64,000 bases of DNA, from the NCBI GenBank assembly GCA_949282965.1, contig CASDQW010000007.1, positions 1-64,000 on the forward strand, written 5' to 3'. Made by a program: the position numbers and the translations under genes. This DNA is from an uncultured Lentisphaeria bacterium. GTDB lineage: Bacteria; Verrucomicrobiota; Lentisphaeria; Victivallales; Victivallaceae. Of the stretch, positions 11,852 to 64,000 are shown piece after piece. The stretch's first letter is position 1. Every line of letters starts with the position of its first letter. The notes under the pieces are model-generated. The model was not told the origin of the DNA and ran no database searches. It worked only from the letters and a program-made list of their open reading frames with translations.

Positions 11852-12320
11852 TCAGACGCTGGTGACGGCCTGCCGTTCCAGGGGATTGCGGGTGACGCCG
11901 CAACGCATTGCGGTATACCGGGTGGTGGCTGGAACGACGACGCATCCGGCGGTGGAGACGATCTGGCGCGAAGTGCGGCGGGTATTGCCGGCCATTTCGC
12001 TGGATACGGTGTACCGGACGCTGGATTCGCTGGTGGAACTGGGGCTGGTGGGGCGGCTGGGGGCGCTGGACAAGACCCGGTTTGACGGGGTGACGGCTGC
12101 TCATGATCACTTCATCTGTCTGAAATGCGGACGGATTGCGGATGTGGCGCAAGTTCATCCGCCCGCGCTGCCGGCATTGGATCCGGCGGTGGGCGTGGTG
12201 CGGACGGCTTCGTTGCAACTCTGGGGCGTCTGCCGGAGCTGTCGGAGCAGCGAAGAGACCGGAAAGGCGGAAAACACGTCGAAAAGTGATGCCGGCGGAG
12301 CCGCCGGACAGAGGAAATAG
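11838..12320 (+). CDS. Fur/PerR family metal-dependent transcription regulator
   Basis: The 160-residue protein has the Fur-family winged helix in its first 85 residues (RGLRVTPQRIAVYRVV, then ISLDTVYRTLDSLVELG) and a dimer domain with HDHFICLKCGRI. A second CxxC (CRSC) near residue 136 completes a structural zinc site. Members repress metal-uptake or peroxide-defence genes when loaded with metal. The C-terminal tail after CRSC is low-complexity and may be disordered. GGAG lies 5 bp before the chosen ATG, which overlaps the end of rnhC. Whether it senses iron, zinc, manganese or peroxide cannot be decided. Confidence 0.88.
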   Translation: MEPIDQTLVTACRSRGLRVTPQRIAVYRVVAGTTTHPAVETIWREVRRVLPAISLDTVYRTLDSLVELGLVGRLGALDKTRFDGVTAAHDHFICLKCGRIADVAQVHPPALPALDPAVGVVRTASLQLWGVCRSCRSSEETGKAENTSKSDAGGAAGQRK

Positions 12321-54849: not shown

Positions 54850-56790
54850 ATGGAAAGTAGAAATGATCTGAGGGCTGCGGTGGACCGTTCCCGACTGATG
54901 ATTCGGCTGTCGGTGATCGGCGGCCTGCTGGCCTTTGTGTTGCTGGTGCTGGTGGTGATCATGGGGATCATCAAGGACAGCTTCGCCGGATCGGACGTGT
55001 TTGCGCTGTCGGTGATTCCGTTGACTTTGTCGGTACTGTTCGCCGTGGCTTCCCTGATCTACGGCATGCTGGGCAGCGCGGCCGCCGTCGAGGATGAGGA
55101 GAAATACCTGCTGGAAAAACGCAAGGAAAATCGCGCGCTCAATGTCGAGGAGGACGTGCGTTTCACCGCGGGACGCTCTTTTGAGAATTATAAGAAGTAC
55201 GCCCCTTATGTGGTGACGGTGTTGGCAGCGCTCGGAATGGCGCTGCTCTTGTTTTTGTTCTCCCGTTACTGGCAGGTGCGGCTGGGCGGCGGGCCGAAAC
55301 CGATCAATTCGCTGAATTCGGCTCTGGTGTCGGCGATTCTGATGCTGCTCTGCCTGTTCAGCGGGGCGTTTTTCGTCGGACAGTCCCGGCAGGCGGCGTT
55401 CCGGTGGCTCCGGCCGATGGGGAGCTGGCTGGTCGGAGCGGGCGGGATCCTGCTCTGTGCGGCGGTGGTGTCGATCTGCAATCACAACCAGGTGGCCATC
55501 GACGGGCGGCTGGCACAGGTGGTCTTCTGGCTGCTGGCGGTGTTGAATGCGGAATTCGTCTTGAACTTCATCATCGAATTTTACCGGCCCCGGACGCTGG
55601 AGGAACCCCGGCCGATTTTCGAGAGCCGGCTGCTGGCGCTGTTCACCGAGCCGGGCGGGGTCATGCGCAATATGGCCGATGCGCTGGATTACCAATTCGG
55701 TTTCAAGGTTTCCGGAACCTGGATTTACGGATTCATCGAGCGGTCGCTGTTCCCGCTGGTGGTGATATGGGCGCTGGTGCTGTGGCTGTCCACGTCTGTT
55801 TATGAAGTGGGGCCGGACGAAGTCGGGATTCGGGAACGGTTCGGCCGGGTGGTGTCCGAGACGCCGTTGCGCGCCGGGATTTATTTTGATCTGCCGTGGC
55901 CTTTCGGCAACATCAACCGTTTCAGCTGCACCCGGATTCATGAAGTGGTCGCCGGCGAAAACGAACACGCCGAAAACGCCGCCAATAATGAAAAGAAACC
56001 CGAAGTGATCCTCTGGACCAAGGCACACGCCACCGGAGAAAACAATTTCGTTGTCGCCGTCGAACCGGAAGGCATGCAGCGGAAGCGGGAAGCCGGCGAA
56101 GGGGTCTCGATTGCGTTTCTTTCGCTGTCGATGCCGGTGCAGTACCGGATCCGGGAGGCCCAGCTCATGGATTACGCCTACAGGAACCGGGATCCGGAGG
56201 TGATTCTCAAACGGATCAGTGAACAGGTGGCGACGGAATATCTGGCCAGCTGTTCGTTGATGCACATCATGTCCGACGGACGGCACGAGGCCGCCGACGC
56301 GATGCGGGACCGGATTCAGAAGCTGGCGGACGCGGAAACGCTGGGGATCGATATTGTGGCGGTCAATCTGCTGGGGATTCATCCGCCGGTGGAGAAGGTC
56401 GCGCCCGCCTTCCAGGAAGTGATCGGCGCGATGGAACAGAAGGAAGCCACCGTGCTGGAAGCCCGGGCCTACGCGGCGAAAATTCTGCCCGCCGCCGAAT
56501 CGAAAGCCCGGCAGATTGTCCAGGAGGCGACCTCCTACCGGTATCGGACCAGCAAGGTGGCCGAGGCCGAAAGCCAGCGTTTCGGCAAGCAGTTGCGCTC
56601 CTATCTGGCCATGCCGGAGATGTTCATGCTGAATTCACATCTGGCGCTGTTGGAGAAAGATGCCGCGGATACGCGGAAGTTCATCCTGAGCGCTTCGCTG
56701 CGCAATGAGATTTACGAGCTCAATTTCGAGCAGAAGGAACGGCTCGATCTGGTCGACGCCGATCTCGGAACATTGGTCAACAAGGATTGA
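54850..56790 (+). CDS. HflK-like SPFH protein with multi-span N-terminal membrane domain
   Basis: At 646 residues this is far larger than HflK (about 420). The first 310 residues hold about seven hydrophobic spans (LSVIGGLLAFVLLVLVVIMG, VIPLTLSVLFAVASLIYGML, PYVVTVLAALGMALLLFLFS, AILMLLCLFSGAFFVG, LVGAGGILLCAAVVSIC, VVFWLLAVLNAEFVLNFII, SLFPLVVIWALVLWLST). The SPFH domain follows directly (VYEVGPDEVGIRERFGRVV, LRAGIYFDLPWPFGNINRF), then the coiled region (ILPAAESKARQIVQEATSYR). GGAGAAGG precedes the ATG. It heads an operon with two more SPFH genes. It may anchor an HflKC-like cage or a flotillin-type microdomain; this is inferred. Confidence 0.85.
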   Translation: MESRNDLRAAVDRSRLMIRLSVIGGLLAFVLLVLVVIMGIIKDSFAGSDVFALSVIPLTLSVLFAVASLIYGMLGSAAAVEDEEKYLLEKRKENRALNVEEDVRFTAGRSFENYKKYAPYVVTVLAALGMALLLFLFSRYWQVRLGGGPKPINSLNSALVSAILMLLCLFSGAFFVGQSRQAAFRWLRPMGSWLVGAGGILLCAAVVSICNHNQVAIDGRLAQVVFWLLAVLNAEFVLNFIIEFYRPRTLEEPRPIFESRLLALFTEPGGVMRNMADALDYQFGFKVSGTWIYGFIERSLFPLVVIWALVLWLSTSVYEVGPDEVGIRERFGRVVSETPLRAGIYFDLPWPFGNINRFSCTRIHEVVAGENEHAENAANNEKKPEVILWTKAHATGENNFVVAVEPEGMQRKREAGEGVSIAFLSLSMPVQYRIREAQLMDYAYRNRDPEVILKRISEQVATEYLASCSLMHIMSDGRHEAADAMRDRIQKLADAETLGIDIVAVNLLGIHPPVEKVAPAFQEVIGAMEQKEATVLEARAYAAKILPAAESKARQIVQEATSYRYRTSKVAEAESQRFGKQLRSYLAMPEMFMLNSHLALLEKDAADTRKFILSASLRNEIYELNFEQKERLDLVDADLGTLVNKD

Positions 56791-58922: not shown

Positions 58923-60971
58923 ATGACTACCGAAGTAAAATCCAATTCCTGCCCGGCCTGCGCCGGCAAACATGATCATGCCCATCATGACCATGAACAT
59001 CATGATCACGTTCATGCGCATGAACATCACGACGGCTGCTGTGGGACGGCGGCCGAGACGAAAGGCTTCTGCCCCTGCGGGCATGACGCGCCCGGCGGAG
59101 TCGGACACGACCGCGCCATGGGCCGGGTGGCGTTCGCCCTGCTCGGCGGTATGCTGTGCGCCAATTCCTTCCTGCTGGACTGGCTGCTGCCGGAGCAGCA
59201 GTTTACGGCTATGTTCAGTGCGTTTCTTGGCGCGGTGGTGCTGGCGCTGCCGATCGTCGCCACGGCGGTCAAGGACCTGCTGAACGGCAAGGTTTATATG
59301 AACGAACTGGTGGCGCTGGCGATTTTGGCGGCGCTGGCCAGCGGGGATTTTCAGACGGCGGGGATTATTGCGTTTTTCCTGTTGCTGACCATTATCATTG
59401 AAACGCGGACTGCCAGCGGCGCACAGCGCTCCATCGAAGAGCTGATCAAGCTGACGCCGAACACCGCCCGGAGACTGGACGGCGACCGGGAAGTCGAAGT
59501 CGATGTGGTGGCCCTGCGGATCGGAGACATCATCCGGGTACGTCCCGGAGAGAATTTCCCGGTGGATGCGAGAATCGTGCGCGGGGAAAGCACCGTCAAC
59601 CAGGCCTCCATCACCGGGGAATCGCTGCCGGTGGACAAGGATGTGAACGATGAGGTTTATGCCGGGACGCAGAACCTGACCGGTCTGGTGGATCTGGAAG
59701 TGACCCGGGTCGGTGAAGACACCACGCTTGGCAAGGTGAAGGAAATGATTCTCGCGGCGGAAGGGAGCCGTCCCCCGGTGGTGCGGATCATCGACCGTTA
59801 TGCGGGGTATTACACGCCGACCGTGCTGATGCTGGCGGGGGTTACCTGGTGCTTCACGACCGATATGGACCGGGTGATCACGCTGATGGTGATCGCCTGC
59901 CCGTGTGCGGTGGTGCTGGCCACCCCGACGGCGGTGGTGGCAGCCGTGGCGGCGGCGGCGCGTCTGGGGATTCTGATCAAGAACGTCAGCCACCTGGAGC
60001 TGGCGGCGCGGATTACCGCGTTTGTTTTCGACAAGACCGGGACTCTGACCGATGGGATTCTGTCGGTGGTGAAGCTCAATGCCTTTGCCGGCGTCACGCA
60101 GGCTGAATTGCTGAAGACCGCCGCTTCTGCGGAACGCTACAGCAACCACCCGACGGCGCTGGCGTTGCAGGCGTTGGCGCAGGAGGCCGGAATGCAGCTG
60201 GATTCTGCGGATGACTTTCAGGAAGTGCACGGCAAAGGGGTGCTGGCCCGGGTGGGCAGCGACCTGTGCCGGATCGGCCGGGCGAAGTGGATGGCGGAAC
60301 AGGGGATTGCGATTCCGGAGCATGAGGTTTCCGAACAGGAAGGCATGAGTGTGGTCTATGTGGCCCGCGGCGAACAGCTGTTGGGATGGATCGGCTTCAA
60401 GGATAAGCTGCGGCGGGAATCTGGCGCCATGATCGGCGATCTGCGGAAGCTGGGGGTTCGTTTCGTGGCGATGGTGACCGGGGACCGCGGTTCGGTGGCG
60501 GAAACGGTGGCGCAGCAGCTGCAGCTGGATGAATTCCGCAGCGAATGTCTGCCGGAAGGCAAGGTTGAGTTCGTCGAGGCGGTGAAGAAAAATGCCCGGG
60601 TCGCAGTGGTTGGGGACGGGGTGAACGACGCTCCGGCTCTGGCGGCCGGCGATCTCGGGATCGCCATGGGGGCGATCGGTAGTGACATTGCCATTAACAG
60701 TGCCTCTATTGCTTTGATGACGAACGACTTGCGTCGTATTCCGATGCTGGTTTATCTGTCGCGGAAATCGCGCTTGATCATCAACCAGAATCTGGTGTTC
60801 GGGATGCTGTTCGTCTTCGGCGGGATGGTTTTGTCGGTGTTCGGCTGGATGACGCCGATCTGGGCGGCGGTGCTGCACACGGGCAGTACGCTGATCATCA
60901 TCTTCAACAGTGCGCGTCTGGTGCGTACCGGAGAAGAATTGACATTGGAAGAAAAAGCGCCGGCCGAATAA
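58923..60971 (+). CDS. Heavy-metal P1B-type ATPase with His-rich N-terminus
   Basis: This 682-residue metal pump has no CxxC-type HMA domain; instead residues 15-40 are nearly all His, Asp and Glu (HDHAHHDHEHHDHVHAHEHH), ending HDGCC. All core motifs are present: ITGESLPVDKD (actuator), ACPCAVVLATPTA (metal-binding CPC), FDKTGTLTDG (phosphorylated Asp), SNHPTALA (HP locus) and GDGVNDAPALAAGD. In the last span the usual ZntA Asp is replaced by VLHTGSTLII. Zinc, cadmium or cobalt export fits the His-rich tail; copper is not excluded. It is in the SPFH operon, with GGAG near its start inside the preceding gene. Confidence 0.93.
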   Translation: MTTEVKSNSCPACAGKHDHAHHDHEHHDHVHAHEHHDGCCGTAAETKGFCPCGHDAPGGVGHDRAMGRVAFALLGGMLCANSFLLDWLLPEQQFTAMFSAFLGAVVLALPIVATAVKDLLNGKVYMNELVALAILAALASGDFQTAGIIAFFLLLTIIIETRTASGAQRSIEELIKLTPNTARRLDGDREVEVDVVALRIGDIIRVRPGENFPVDARIVRGESTVNQASITGESLPVDKDVNDEVYAGTQNLTGLVDLEVTRVGEDTTLGKVKEMILAAEGSRPPVVRIIDRYAGYYTPTVLMLAGVTWCFTTDMDRVITLMVIACPCAVVLATPTAVVAAVAAAARLGILIKNVSHLELAARITAFVFDKTGTLTDGILSVVKLNAFAGVTQAELLKTAASAERYSNHPTALALQALAQEAGMQLDSADDFQEVHGKGVLARVGSDLCRIGRAKWMAEQGIAIPEHEVSEQEGMSVVYVARGEQLLGWIGFKDKLRRESGAMIGDLRKLGVRFVAMVTGDRGSVAETVAQQLQLDEFRSECLPEGKVEFVEAVKKNARVAVVGDGVNDAPALAAGDLGIAMGAIGSDIAINSASIALMTNDLRRIPMLVYLSRKSRLIINQNLVFGMLFVFGGMVLSVFGWMTPIWAAVLHTGSTLIIIFNSARLVRTGEELTLEEKAPAE

Positions 60972-61004: not shown

Positions 61005-62189
61005 ATGGCGCAGCAGTCAACACCGGTGGTCAGCGCCGTCGGCCTGACCAAGGTTTTCCGGGATTTCTGGGGGCGTCCCAAAGCCAAGGCGGTCAATGAC
61101 GTTGACTTCGAAATCCACGAAGGAGAGGTTGTGGGGCTGCTCGGTCCCAACGGCTCGGGCAAGTCGACCACGGTCAAGATGATTCTTGGTTTGCTTTACC
61201 CCACCGGCGGTTCGCTGTCGGTGCTGGGGCGGTCTCCGCGCGCGGTGGAAACCAAGCGCGAGATCGGTTATCTGCCGGAAGAGTCGTATCTGTACAAATA
61301 CCTGACCGCGGAAGAGACGCTGGATTTCTTCGGGGCTCTGTTCAATCTGTCCAGGGCGGAACGGCGTCGCCGCATTGATCAGCTGCTGGAGATGGTCGGG
61401 ATGGCCCACGCCCGGCGGCGTCGGGTCGGGGAATTTTCCAAGGGGATGGCGCGCCGGATCGGTCTGGCGCAGGCGATGATCAACGACCCGGCATTTCTGA
61501 TTCTGGATGAACCGACTTCCGGGCTGGACCCGCTGGGGTGCAAGGAGGTCAAGGACCTGATCACCATGCTGAAAAAACGCGGCAAGACCGTGGTGATTAC
61601 CAGTCATCTGCTCAGTGATATTGAAGACATTTGCGACCGGGTGATCATTCTGTACGGCGGCCGGGTGCGTGCGACGGGGACTTTGCATGACCTGCTTACG
61701 GTCAACGACGAAAATCGGATCATCACTCCGGCGTTGCCGCCAGCGGTGATGACCCGGCTGGTGGCGCTGCTGCGGGAAAATCTTCATGGCGAAGAGTTCC
61801 GGATTGACCATCCGCGCCGGACGCTGGAGGAATTCTTCCTGGAGGTGATCAACCAGGCCAAGGCGGAAAGCATCGAAACCGCCGGGGTGGTTGGCGGCGG
61901 AAAGATTGCCGAATATCTTTCCGAAGAGGAAAAGTCGAATGCCGTGCTGGATGCCTTGATGAGCGAAAGTGCCGCGCCTGCCGCCGATACCGTTGAACCG
62001 GCGTCCGTGTCGGAACCGGCGGCACCGGAGCCGGCCGAACCGGTTCTGGATGAAAAACTGGCGGAATTGACTGGTGAAACCGCCGCTGCCGCACCGGAAG
62101 CAGAGGCGGCGGAAGAGGCGCAGAAGAAGCAGGAAGAACTCGATGCCGTCAATGCCAAACTCGATGATCTGCTGCGCGGCAGGAAGTAA
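61005..62189 (+). CDS. ABC transporter ATP-binding protein with acidic C-terminal extension
   Basis: The 394-residue ATPase has Walker A (LLGPNGSGKSTTVKMILGLL), Q-loop (GYLPEESYLYKYLTAEETL), signature-like FSKGMARRIGLAQAM, Walker B (FLILDEPTSGLDPLG) and the His switch (VVITSHLLSDI). It is closest in style to ABC-2 exporters. After residue 300 it carries a Pro/Ala/Glu-rich extension (VEPASVSEPAAPEPAEPV) and a short coiled end, not part of the ATPase fold. GGAAGGAA precedes the ATG, 33 bp after the P-type ATPase. It pairs with the permease downstream. Confidence 0.92.
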   Translation: MAQQSTPVVSAVGLTKVFRDFWGRPKAKAVNDVDFEIHEGEVVGLLGPNGSGKSTTVKMILGLLYPTGGSLSVLGRSPRAVETKREIGYLPEESYLYKYLTAEETLDFFGALFNLSRAERRRRIDQLLEMVGMAHARRRRVGEFSKGMARRIGLAQAMINDPAFLILDEPTSGLDPLGCKEVKDLITMLKKRGKTVVITSHLLSDIEDICDRVIILYGGRVRATGTLHDLLTVNDENRIITPALPPAVMTRLVALLRENLHGEEFRIDHPRRTLEEFFLEVINQAKAESIETAGVVGGGKIAEYLSEEEKSNAVLDALMSESAAPAADTVEPASVSEPAAPEPAEPVLDEKLAELTGETAAAAPEAEAAEEAQKKQEELDAVNAKLDDLLRGRK

Positions 62190-62228
62190 CGGGACGATCA
62201 GCCGGAAACAGAAGAAGAACGGAAAATT

Positions 62229-63659
62229 ATGAGAGCATTCGCCGCCATAGTGCACTTGACGTTCCGCAACGCGATGCGGTCGCATATTTTCCAGCTGCTG
62301 CTGGGATTGCTGCTGTTGTGCGTCGGATTGATTCCGACGACGATCAGCGGCGACGGAACGGCGACTGGGTTTATCCAGATTTCACTGCTGTACAGCTTGT
62401 CGGCGGTGATGCTGGTGTTGTCGCTGTCATCCGTGTGGCTGGGGTGTTACGTGATGACGCAGGATGTGGACAGTTATCAGCTTCACATGGTGATCACCAA
62501 GCCGGTGTCGCGGGTGACGATCTGGCTGGGGAAATTCAGTGGGATTTTGTTGATCAACACCATTTTGCTGATTTTTTCCACGACCATTATTTACTTCATT
62601 ATGCTGGCGAAGTTCTATCAGCAGGACTTTTCCAAGGAAGACCGGGCGCGTATTGAAAACGAAGTCATGGTCGGGCGCCGGGTGTTCTGGCCGGATCGCC
62701 CTGATCTCGACCAGATCGCGCGCAGCGCGCTGAGTGAAAAGCTCAAGGTGCTGGAGGCCCAGGGCAAGGAAATCGACCGTTCCCCGCAGGGACAGGAAAG
62801 GATGCTGGCCGAAACCAAACGGGAAATCCAGGCCCAGATGTCGGAGCTCAAACCGGGCCAGACCACGTACTGGACTTTTTCGAATATTCCCGCGGATTTG
62901 CAGCGGCCGCTTTACATGCGTTACCGGTTGTACATCGACAAGGTGGCAACCGAGGGGCAGCGGCTGACCCATGGTTTGTGGCAGATCGGCAAGCCGCGCA
63001 TCAACGAGGAGAGAGGTGCCAATGTATTTGAACAGGCACGGCGTCAGGATTATGATCTGCACATGTTCAATTTGAGCGAGATGCCGGAGCAGGTCAAGAG
63101 CGGCGATTTCCATGAAAAGGTTTTCCCGCCGGAATGGGGGATCGTTACGCCGGACGGGAAGGTGGTGCTTGGATATACGAACTTCGACCGGCAGAACGGG
63201 ACTCAGCACTTTCAGCCGGGAGACGGTCCCAAGATTCTGTTGCGGGTCAGCGGGTTTGCGGTCAACTACTTCCGGGCGGTGTTCGTTATTTTCCTGGAAC
63301 TGGTGATCCTGACCGGTCTGGGATGTGCGGCGGCGGCGTTTCTGACCATGCCGACGGCGATTTTCGTGGTGATTTCCTATCTGCTGTTCGGGAGTTTCGC
63401 CTCGTATATGGCTGAAACGAGTTATTTCGGCGGCGCGGCGGATTACATCGGCTACTATGTCGGAAAAATCCTGCTGCTGGTGGTGATTCCGATTCAGAAG
63501 TTCGAAGTCACCAATCTGGTGGCGAACGGCGAACTGGTGGAATTTTCTTTCATCTGGCGGCTGATCTTCGCGTATCTGCTGCTGCGGGCCTTGCCGCTGT
63601 TTTTGTTCGGTATTCTGATGTACCGGCGGCGTGAAATGGGGTTGATTATACGCAAATGA
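62229..63659 (+). CDS. ABC-2 type transporter permease
   Basis: The 476-residue membrane protein has three spans near the N-terminus (HIFQLLLGLLLLCVGLIPTT, LLYSLSAVMLVLSLSSVWLG, SGILLINTILLIFSTTIIYF), a large extracytoplasmic domain at about residues 140-340, and further C-terminal spans (AVFVIFLELVILTGLGCAAA, IFVVISYLLFGSFASYMA, LIFAYLLLRALPLFLFGILM). It is the partner of the preceding ATPase, 39 bp away. The big periplasmic insert is unlike simple drug exporters and could contact envelope proteins. The cargo is unknown. Its stop overlaps the next ATG. Confidence 0.88.
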   Translation: MRAFAAIVHLTFRNAMRSHIFQLLLGLLLLCVGLIPTTISGDGTATGFIQISLLYSLSAVMLVLSLSSVWLGCYVMTQDVDSYQLHMVITKPVSRVTIWLGKFSGILLINTILLIFSTTIIYFIMLAKFYQQDFSKEDRARIENEVMVGRRVFWPDRPDLDQIARSALSEKLKVLEAQGKEIDRSPQGQERMLAETKREIQAQMSELKPGQTTYWTFSNIPADLQRPLYMRYRLYIDKVATEGQRLTHGLWQIGKPRINEERGANVFEQARRQDYDLHMFNLSEMPEQVKSGDFHEKVFPPEWGIVTPDGKVVLGYTNFDRQNGTQHFQPGDGPKILLRVSGFAVNYFRAVFVIFLELVILTGLGCAAAAFLTMPTAIFVVISYLLFGSFASYMAETSYFGGAADYIGYYVGKILLLVVIPIQKFEVTNLVANGELVEFSFIWRLIFAYLLLRALPLFLFGILMYRRREMGLIIRK

Positions 63660-64000
63660 ATCGATTCAGAACACTTGTCATGTATTGTTCGCTCCTGCTG
63701 GTGACGCTGGTGCTGATTTTCGGGATATCCCGGGTGGAGAAGCAGCTGGACGGCATGGTGCGGGAGAATCATCTGCGTTTTACCGGCCAGATCAAGAATG
63801 CCCCGCCGCTGGTGGCATTCACCACGGTGGCGCTGGGCAGCTTCCGGGGGCTGATCGCGGACTTGCTCTGGTTCCGTGCGGGAGGATTGCAGGAGAAGGG
63901 CAACTACTTTGAAATGGTGCAGCTGGCCCGCTGGATCACGGATTTGCAACCGACCTTTTCCGGGGCGACGGCGTATCTGGCGTGGAACATGGCGTATAAC
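63656..64000 (+). CDS. Membrane-anchored protein, N-terminal part (runs off window)
   Basis: The first 115 residues are present. An N-terminal span (VMYCSLLLVTLVLIFGI) is followed by a helical region with LGSFRGLIADLLWFRAGGLQ, YFEMVQLARWITDLQP and TAYLAWNMAYN. This pattern is shared with TPR-like envelope proteins of PVC bacteria that follow ABC-2 permeases, as far as I recall. The ATG overlaps the permease stop, so it belongs to the same operon. The C-terminus is outside the window. Confidence 0.7.
   Translation, partial: MNRFRTLVMYCSLLLVTLVLIFGISRVEKQLDGMVRENHLRFTGQIKNAPPLVAFTTVALGSFRGLIADLLWFRAGGLQEKGNYFEMVQLARWITDLQPTFSGATAYLAWNMAYN

Follow-up and report, generated by a model that had tools for sequence, protein, structure and literature searches.

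Gene content of the locus

The window analysed here, a stretch of 64,000 nucleotides from an uncultured Lentisphaeria bacterium, contains a block of four genes, which we call A to D, with intergenic gaps of 18 (A-B), 26 (B-C) and 3 (C-D) bases as calculated from the coordinates (Table 1). The reading frame of gene A (646 amino acids) is unbroken from 54850 to 56790 on the forward strand, and its relatives across the Lentisphaeria, at 39-95% identity, show the frame to be intact and conserved. In three genomes (L046 9001-11002; G138:C35:46391-48385; L016) a frameshift or stop interrupts gene A, possibly through assembly errors or decay, and versions of 826-885 amino acids (L125, L126, L164) are probably the product of over-extended starts in GC-rich DNA.

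Table 1. Features of the block in the window and of transporter-SPFH fusions at other loci
Feature	Location	Strand	Basis or remark
Gene A, 7TM-SPFH protein, 646 aa	54850..56790	+	ORF and translation, Band_7 match, AlphaFold2 pLDDT 80
Residues 1-245, six-span domain, putative remote and degenerate CDF (cation diffusion facilitator) relative	54850..55584	+	AlphaFold2 pLDDT 88, fold and profile-profile matches
Residues 245-297, cytosolic linker YRPR...ES...F..GG...N....LDYQFGF.VS	55582..55740	+	Invariant or near-invariant residues, 68 sequences
Residues 298-318, TM7, HflK-type anchor span	55741..55803	+	Hydropathy, AlphaFold2
Residues 319-646, HflK-type SPFH domain with long helix, periplasmic by prediction	55804..56787	+	phmmer, Foldseek
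Gene B, HflC-like SPFH protein, 318 aa	56809..57765	+	TIGR01932 hflC, 144 bits, above cut-off of 134
Gene C, HflK-like SPFH protein, 375 aa	57792..58919	+	TIGR01933 hflK, under cut-off at E 1e-39
Gene D, P1B-type (heavy-metal) ATPase, 682 aa	58923..60971	+	TIGR01525; Pfam E1-E2_ATPase, Hydrolase
Gene D, His-rich N-terminal stretch	58971..59034	+	13 His in first 60 residues
Gene D, CPC metal motif, residues 326-328	59898..59906	+	
Gene E, ABC ATPase	61005..62189	+	Behind block in most Lentisphaeria; inverted in L113
Gene F, permease-like membrane protein that pairs with gene E	62229..63659	+	Neighbouring unit
P1B-ATPase-SPFH single ORF	L141 4440-7454		
P1B-ATPase-SPFH single ORF	L159 6637-9609		
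P1B-ATPase-SPFH single ORF	L160 5864-9031		
P1B-ATPase-SPFH single ORF	L161 130-3009		
P1B-ATPase-SPFH single ORF, truncated	L228 1-2635		
CDF-SPFH (HflK-type) fusion, then HflC- and HflK-like genes	L162 3683-5215 (G114)		
CDF-SPFH (HflK-type) fusion, then HflC- and HflK-like genes	L225 5032-6576 (G290)		
CDF-SPFH (HflK-type) fusion, then HflC- and HflK-like genes	L226 5328-6857 (G204)		

The initial annotation had described gene A as an SPFH protein with an approximately seven-span membrane domain in front, and this is borne out by hydropathy over 134 aligned relatives and by AlphaFold2. Seven hydrophobic spans lie within residues 1-316, ahead of an HflK-type SPFH domain, at approximately 18-40, 50-72, 117-138, 154-174, 192-210, 222-243 and 298-318 (mean hydropathy), and the loop charges of the same relatives predict that the N-terminus is inside and the SPFH domain outside, in the periplasm. 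Structure prediction of the protein alone, which had been proposed as a check, gave seven helices (2-41, 55-92, 107-143, 154-178, 187-210, 216-245 and 291-314) followed by an SPFH fold (pLDDT 80 for the full model), and the membrane half modelled by itself (pLDDT 88, pTM 0.82) agreed with this.

Gene A matches the Pfam Band_7 profile (PF01145) at E 6.8e-11, with 43 bits against a cut-off of 23.6, which places it among the SPFH proteins, and it scores 107.8 (E 6e-31) against the NCBIfam hflK model (TIGR01933), under the curated cut-off of 159.4. By these profile scores it is HflK-like yet outside the HflK equivalog, and in place of the single N-terminal span that defines HflK and HflC it has seven by both hydropathy and AlphaFold2. 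The SPFH half matches the E. coli HflK structure 7vhq (phmmer E 4e-19) and 9cz2 (Foldseek E 8e-14), and its H393 and H511 are close to invariant by column counts. As TM7 corresponds to the ordinary HflK anchor, the addition consists of a six-span domain (residues ~1-245) and a cytosolic linker (245-297); no other part of the protein is as conserved as this linker of about 50 residues, which has numerous invariant or near-invariant positions among 68 sequences.

Gene D accompanies gene A at nearly all testable loci

Gene D scores 545.7 bits against TIGR01525 (cut-off 346.25) and carries the CPC motif, which identifies it as a P1B-ATPase. Loci of relatives were annotated with five profiles (one each for the 7TM part, for the A-type SPFH part and for B, C and D), and gene D was found within 7.5 kb and on the same strand at 97 of the 99 testable loci carrying the 7TM domain (109 loci have the 7TM part, of which 10 are cut by the locus or contig end, and the 2 that have no D belong to one genome). 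As a control, 19 ordinary hflK or hflK/hflC loci from the same phylum, some of them short on one side, were annotated as well, and none has D. The initial annotation had named two SPFH partners of gene A and had overlooked this fourth member of the set.

In distant members the CPC motif of gene D is altered to VPA, CPI, CPV, CPM, IPC or LPC (in L115, L142, L118, L120, L134, L129-L132, L139 and L140), with the TM8 region staying similar. In most Lentisphaeria the block is followed by the ABC ATPase, the permease and a further gene (61005-64000 in the window), and since this trio is inverted in L113 it resembles a separate unit; genes E and F are absent or inverted at some loci and were rejected as core members, and gene E probably belongs to a neighbouring unit. 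No conserved palindrome or Zur-type operator was found upstream of gene A in the Lentisphaeria, a search that a differently shaped operator could escape, and the Zur-box search gave a single chance match in L151, distant from the block. The contig also encodes a Fur-family regulator, at 11880-12152 of the window; the genome has three such genes. The genome of the window also has a second SPFH gene pair (G000:C27:5952-8248, L135) with open frames of 516 and 638 amino acids, flotillin-like in length, and similar pairs are present in several relatives.

A probable relation of the six-span domain to CDF zinc transporters

The region of residues 1-310 had been said to lack any recognisable family, and the profile search proposed for it came back empty, no curated family of Pfam or NCBIfam covering it; residues 1-316 likewise gave no match in Pfam, NCBIfam or PDB sequence searches, and gene A did not match PF01545 (CDF) at E 0.1. 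That part of the claim stands, but a probable remote relation to the CDF zinc transporters had been missed. In Foldseek searches with the full model HflK came first and zinc CDF transporters came after the SPFH entries, and with the membrane half only the top seven PDB matches were all zinc CDF proteins (ZnT3, YiiP, ZnT4), with probabilities of 0.96-1.00, E-values of 0.05-0.2, which are not significant by themselves, and TM-scores of about 0.4. An independent profile-profile comparison (hhalign) of the 7TM profile with a CDF alignment gave P 1.2e-4 in local mode, with TM3-TM6 in register, and P 1.4e-5 in global mode, against P of at least 0.05 for all decoys (reversed profiles, four other membrane families and ten block-shuffled CDF profiles); with Lentisphaeria sequences only the match to CDF was weaker (probability 8%, E 0.004).

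The H/DxxxD metal site of TM2 and TM5 is absent from gene A at the aligned CDF positions, where P57, S/A61, W193 and G/A197 are found with no conserved ligands among them, so no CDF metal site is left. Gene A shares with YiiP and ZnT3 the six-span topology, the fold-search likeness and the TM3-TM6 profile similarity, but differs in having neither the metal ligands nor a PF01545 match, in its cytosolic loops and in carrying an SPFH domain in place of the CDF C-terminal domain. These sequence and model comparisons suggest that the six-span domain is likely to be a CDF-derived pseudo-transporter.

Distribution and phylogeny of the block

The architecture had been thought unusual, but it is in fact common in Verrucomicrobiota and is found in Proteobacteria, where it goes under the label "protease modulator HflK". 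Its belonging to a known, widespread SPFH architecture had been named as the outcome that would speak against the claim, and of this the widespread part holds while we found it nowhere already described. The block reaches distant Verrucomicrobiota, being retained down to about 25-30% identity of gene A, and, in the phyla beyond, which were sampled through plasmids only, it occurs on alpha-, beta- and gammaproteobacterial plasmids (Rhizobium, Paraburkholderia, Burkholderia, Klebsiella), their gene A being annotated as above. Ten plasmid records have D at E <= 1e-80 and all ten also carry gene A, and a zinc ABC importer adjoins the Paraburkholderia block. Viral contigs gave no relative of the proteobacterial gene A protein, and E. 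coli genomes gave no match to the A-B-C genes of the Klebsiella plasmid. A-B-C-D is a widespread, conserved bacterial four-gene block that ties an HflK/HflC-like family to a metal ATPase.

In a tree of 108 SPFH domains canonical HflK and canonical HflC each formed a clade, apart from the A, B and C lineages, and the A, B and C subtrees largely matched in their branching, as is expected if the three genes travel together. B was one clade, and A and C each required two or three label changes, in a tree where some deep placements are weak and the sole plasmid A row is a long branch. Gene D formed its own clade in a small P1B-ATPase tree with few reference sequences.

Transporter-SPFH fusions in other Verrucomicrobiota

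Searching for A-type SPFH domains in longer open reading frames revealed proteins in which a transporter and an SPFH domain are joined. A P1B-ATPase and an SPFH domain form a single frame of 959-1055 amino acids, with no stop, in G007, G020, G053 and G114, with the B and C genes behind it, and a fifth such fusion (G302) is cut by the contig end; by simple pattern searches CPC is present in 3 and DKTGT in all 4 of the complete ones. Three further fusions (G114, G204, G290), representing three families, have a complete CDF domain with HxxxD in TM2 and TM5; the G114 protein matches PF01545 at E 1e-24 and the other two are 59-60% identical to it.

The SPFH parts of the fusions cluster with canonical HflK, apart from gene A; on this ground gene A was rejected as an ancestor of the fusion lineages, and the fusions are parallel cases, not direct ancestors. 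The fused P1B-ATPases also separated from gene D (in the small tree with few reference sequences), and since both parts lie apart from A and D, the joining of SPFH trios with metal transporters has probably happened on more than one occasion, as judged from these sequence relationships.

Comparison with known systems

The SPFH half of gene A has its best sequence and fold match in E. coli HflK/HflC (the FtsH-HflKC cage; 7vhq, 7wi3, 9cz2), with which the block shares the SPFH domain, the long helix, the periplasmic side and the pairing of HflK and HflC partners. It differs in several ways: A has six additional spans, the SPFH genes number three and run A-B-C in place of K-C, the linkage to a P1B-ATPase is strict, and A and C score under the hflK model cut-off. 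Gene D is a full P1B-ATPase like ZntA, CopA and CoaT (4umv, 3rfu, 7qbz), with CPC, DKTGT and a CoaT-like H..GST in TM8, and differs from them in forming its own clade (small tree) and in lying beside SPFH genes at nearly all loci examined.

The genes PA2439 (HflK family), PA2438 (HflC), PA2437 (HflC-family SPFH) and PA2435 (HmtA) of Pseudomonas aeruginosa PAO1 are arranged in the order of the block, and gene order and annotation suggest that PA2439-PA2435 are orthologous to it, including the 7TM domain. The likeness of the PA2434-PA2439 cluster lies in this order of HflK-family, HflC, SPFH and P-type ATPase genes and in its regulation by zinc. HmtA is reported to be a P-type ATPase whose overexpression raises cellular Zn and Cu (PMC10393844). 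Loss of znuA increases PA2439-PA2437 and PA2435 by 5.6- to 14.4-fold (PMC4542158), the proteins of the PA2439-PA2435 cluster are more abundant without Zn (PMC11761036), Zur, with Zn, binds to the promoter of PA2439 (PMC8531726) and N-acetylcysteine induces the cluster along with zinc-uptake genes (PMC9431628). As counter-evidence, one study saw no repression of hmtA mRNA when Zn was added (PMC8531726). PA2439, PA2438 and PA2437 correspond to PA14_33070, 33080 and 33110 (PMC9431628), which are PaFlo5-7, and PMC13086221 describes only mild phenotypes for their joint deletion, in tests that do not appear to have covered metal limitation. The papers handle HmtA and the SPFH genes apart, as a zinc transporter or as flotillin-like proteins, and in the open-licence PMC literature no description was found of a single system that combines SPFH proteins and a P-type ATPase or CDF transporter. 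The kinds of component are known and their combination appears to be undescribed.

Interpretation

On balance we favour the explanation that A-B-C-D encodes a single machine, in which an HflKC-like SPFH assembly is specialised for a P1B metal-transporting ATPase. This rests on the architecture, the conserved block, co-inheritance and the SPFH-P1B and SPFH-CDF fusions, and from these we infer co-assembly, docking, metal and direction of transport. A, B and C, with their predicted periplasmic SPFH domains, would probably co-assemble like HflK and HflC and wall off a patch of membrane, in keeping with the initial suggestion, which is plausible, that gene A is the membrane base of an SPFH cage with its two partner SPFH proteins. 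Gene A would be the special subunit, a CDF-type six-span pseudo-transporter with no metal site, whose conserved cytosolic loops may dock or gate the ATPase D inside the cage or at its rim. The cage would confine the periplasmic side of the pump and might control it by shielding, by feeding metal from the enclosed periplasmic space, by preventing leakage or through turnover governed by FtsH; where the transporter is fused directly to an SPFH subunit, the adaptor would not be needed. If the P. aeruginosa hmtA cluster is taken as a guide, Zn2+ (perhaps Cu) is the most likely cargo, and the setting is likely to be metal acquisition under starvation.

The linkage of D to 7TM loci as opposed to canonical ones, the persistence of the block in distant relatives and on plasmids, the matching A, B and C subtrees, the fusions, taken as Rosetta-stone evidence, the CDF relation of the six-span domain, the published zinc responses of the P. 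aeruginosa cluster and the zinc importer beside the Paraburkholderia block were counted for this one-machine explanation; against it stand the hmtA mRNA that added Zn did not lower, the missing Zur box upstream of A in the Lentisphaeria, the altered CPC in several distant D proteins, the position of the fusions outside the A lineage and the CDF fold matches, whose E-values by themselves are not significant. If A-B-C were instead plain HflKC modulators of FtsH, with the 7TM domain as an extra anchor and D merely co-transcribed or one client of FtsH, it would fit that gene B exceeds the HflC cut-off, that the genome of the window encodes FtsH and that G002 and G006 (listed as 99% complete) have only four SPFH proteins each, so that the module may be their sole HflKC. 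This seems unlikely to us given the absence of D from the canonical hflKC loci set against its near-constant presence beside gene A, the canonical-type pair or subunit that G126, G115 and G191 hold besides the module, and the covalent fusions of SPFH domains with P1B and CDF transporters.

P1B-ATPases are usually exporters, and a role in metal export or detoxification, in which D exports Zn, Cd or Co while the cage shelters the pump or sees to its recycling, would agree with the His-rich N-terminus of D and with its best scores being to CopA/ZntA/CoaT-type exporters. We consider this improbable as well, as the P. aeruginosa cluster of matching order is induced by zinc depletion and not by excess (PMC4542158, PMC11761036, PMC9431628) and cells that overexpress HmtA contain more Zn and Cu (PMC10393844). 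Activity of the 7TM domain as a transporter or enzyme in its own right, such as an ion or lipid conduit at the base of the cage, and not a dead CDF scaffold, is suggested by an invariant acidic E235 within TM6 and the many invariant cytosolic residues, but it is quite doubtful, the four CDF metal positions having no conserved ligands and Pfam and NCBIfam giving no match to a catalytic family.

To our knowledge no bacterial guest of HflKC other than FtsH has been well shown. We see an even chance that the proteins described here represent an undescribed class of machine, SPFH cages housing metal transporters, in which HflKC-type assemblies were joined to pumps repeatedly: as a P1B operon via a dead-CDF adaptor, as a P1B fusion and as a live-CDF fusion. 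If true, this would explain why three SPFH genes lie beside HmtA, a P-type ATPase reported as a metal importer, and the covalent fusion of a transporter with a cage subunit would directly show that cages can be built for a specific transporter, besides offering easy targets for cryo-EM. The architecture of gene A and the block around it suggest that in some bacteria metal pumps are enclosed in membrane cages.
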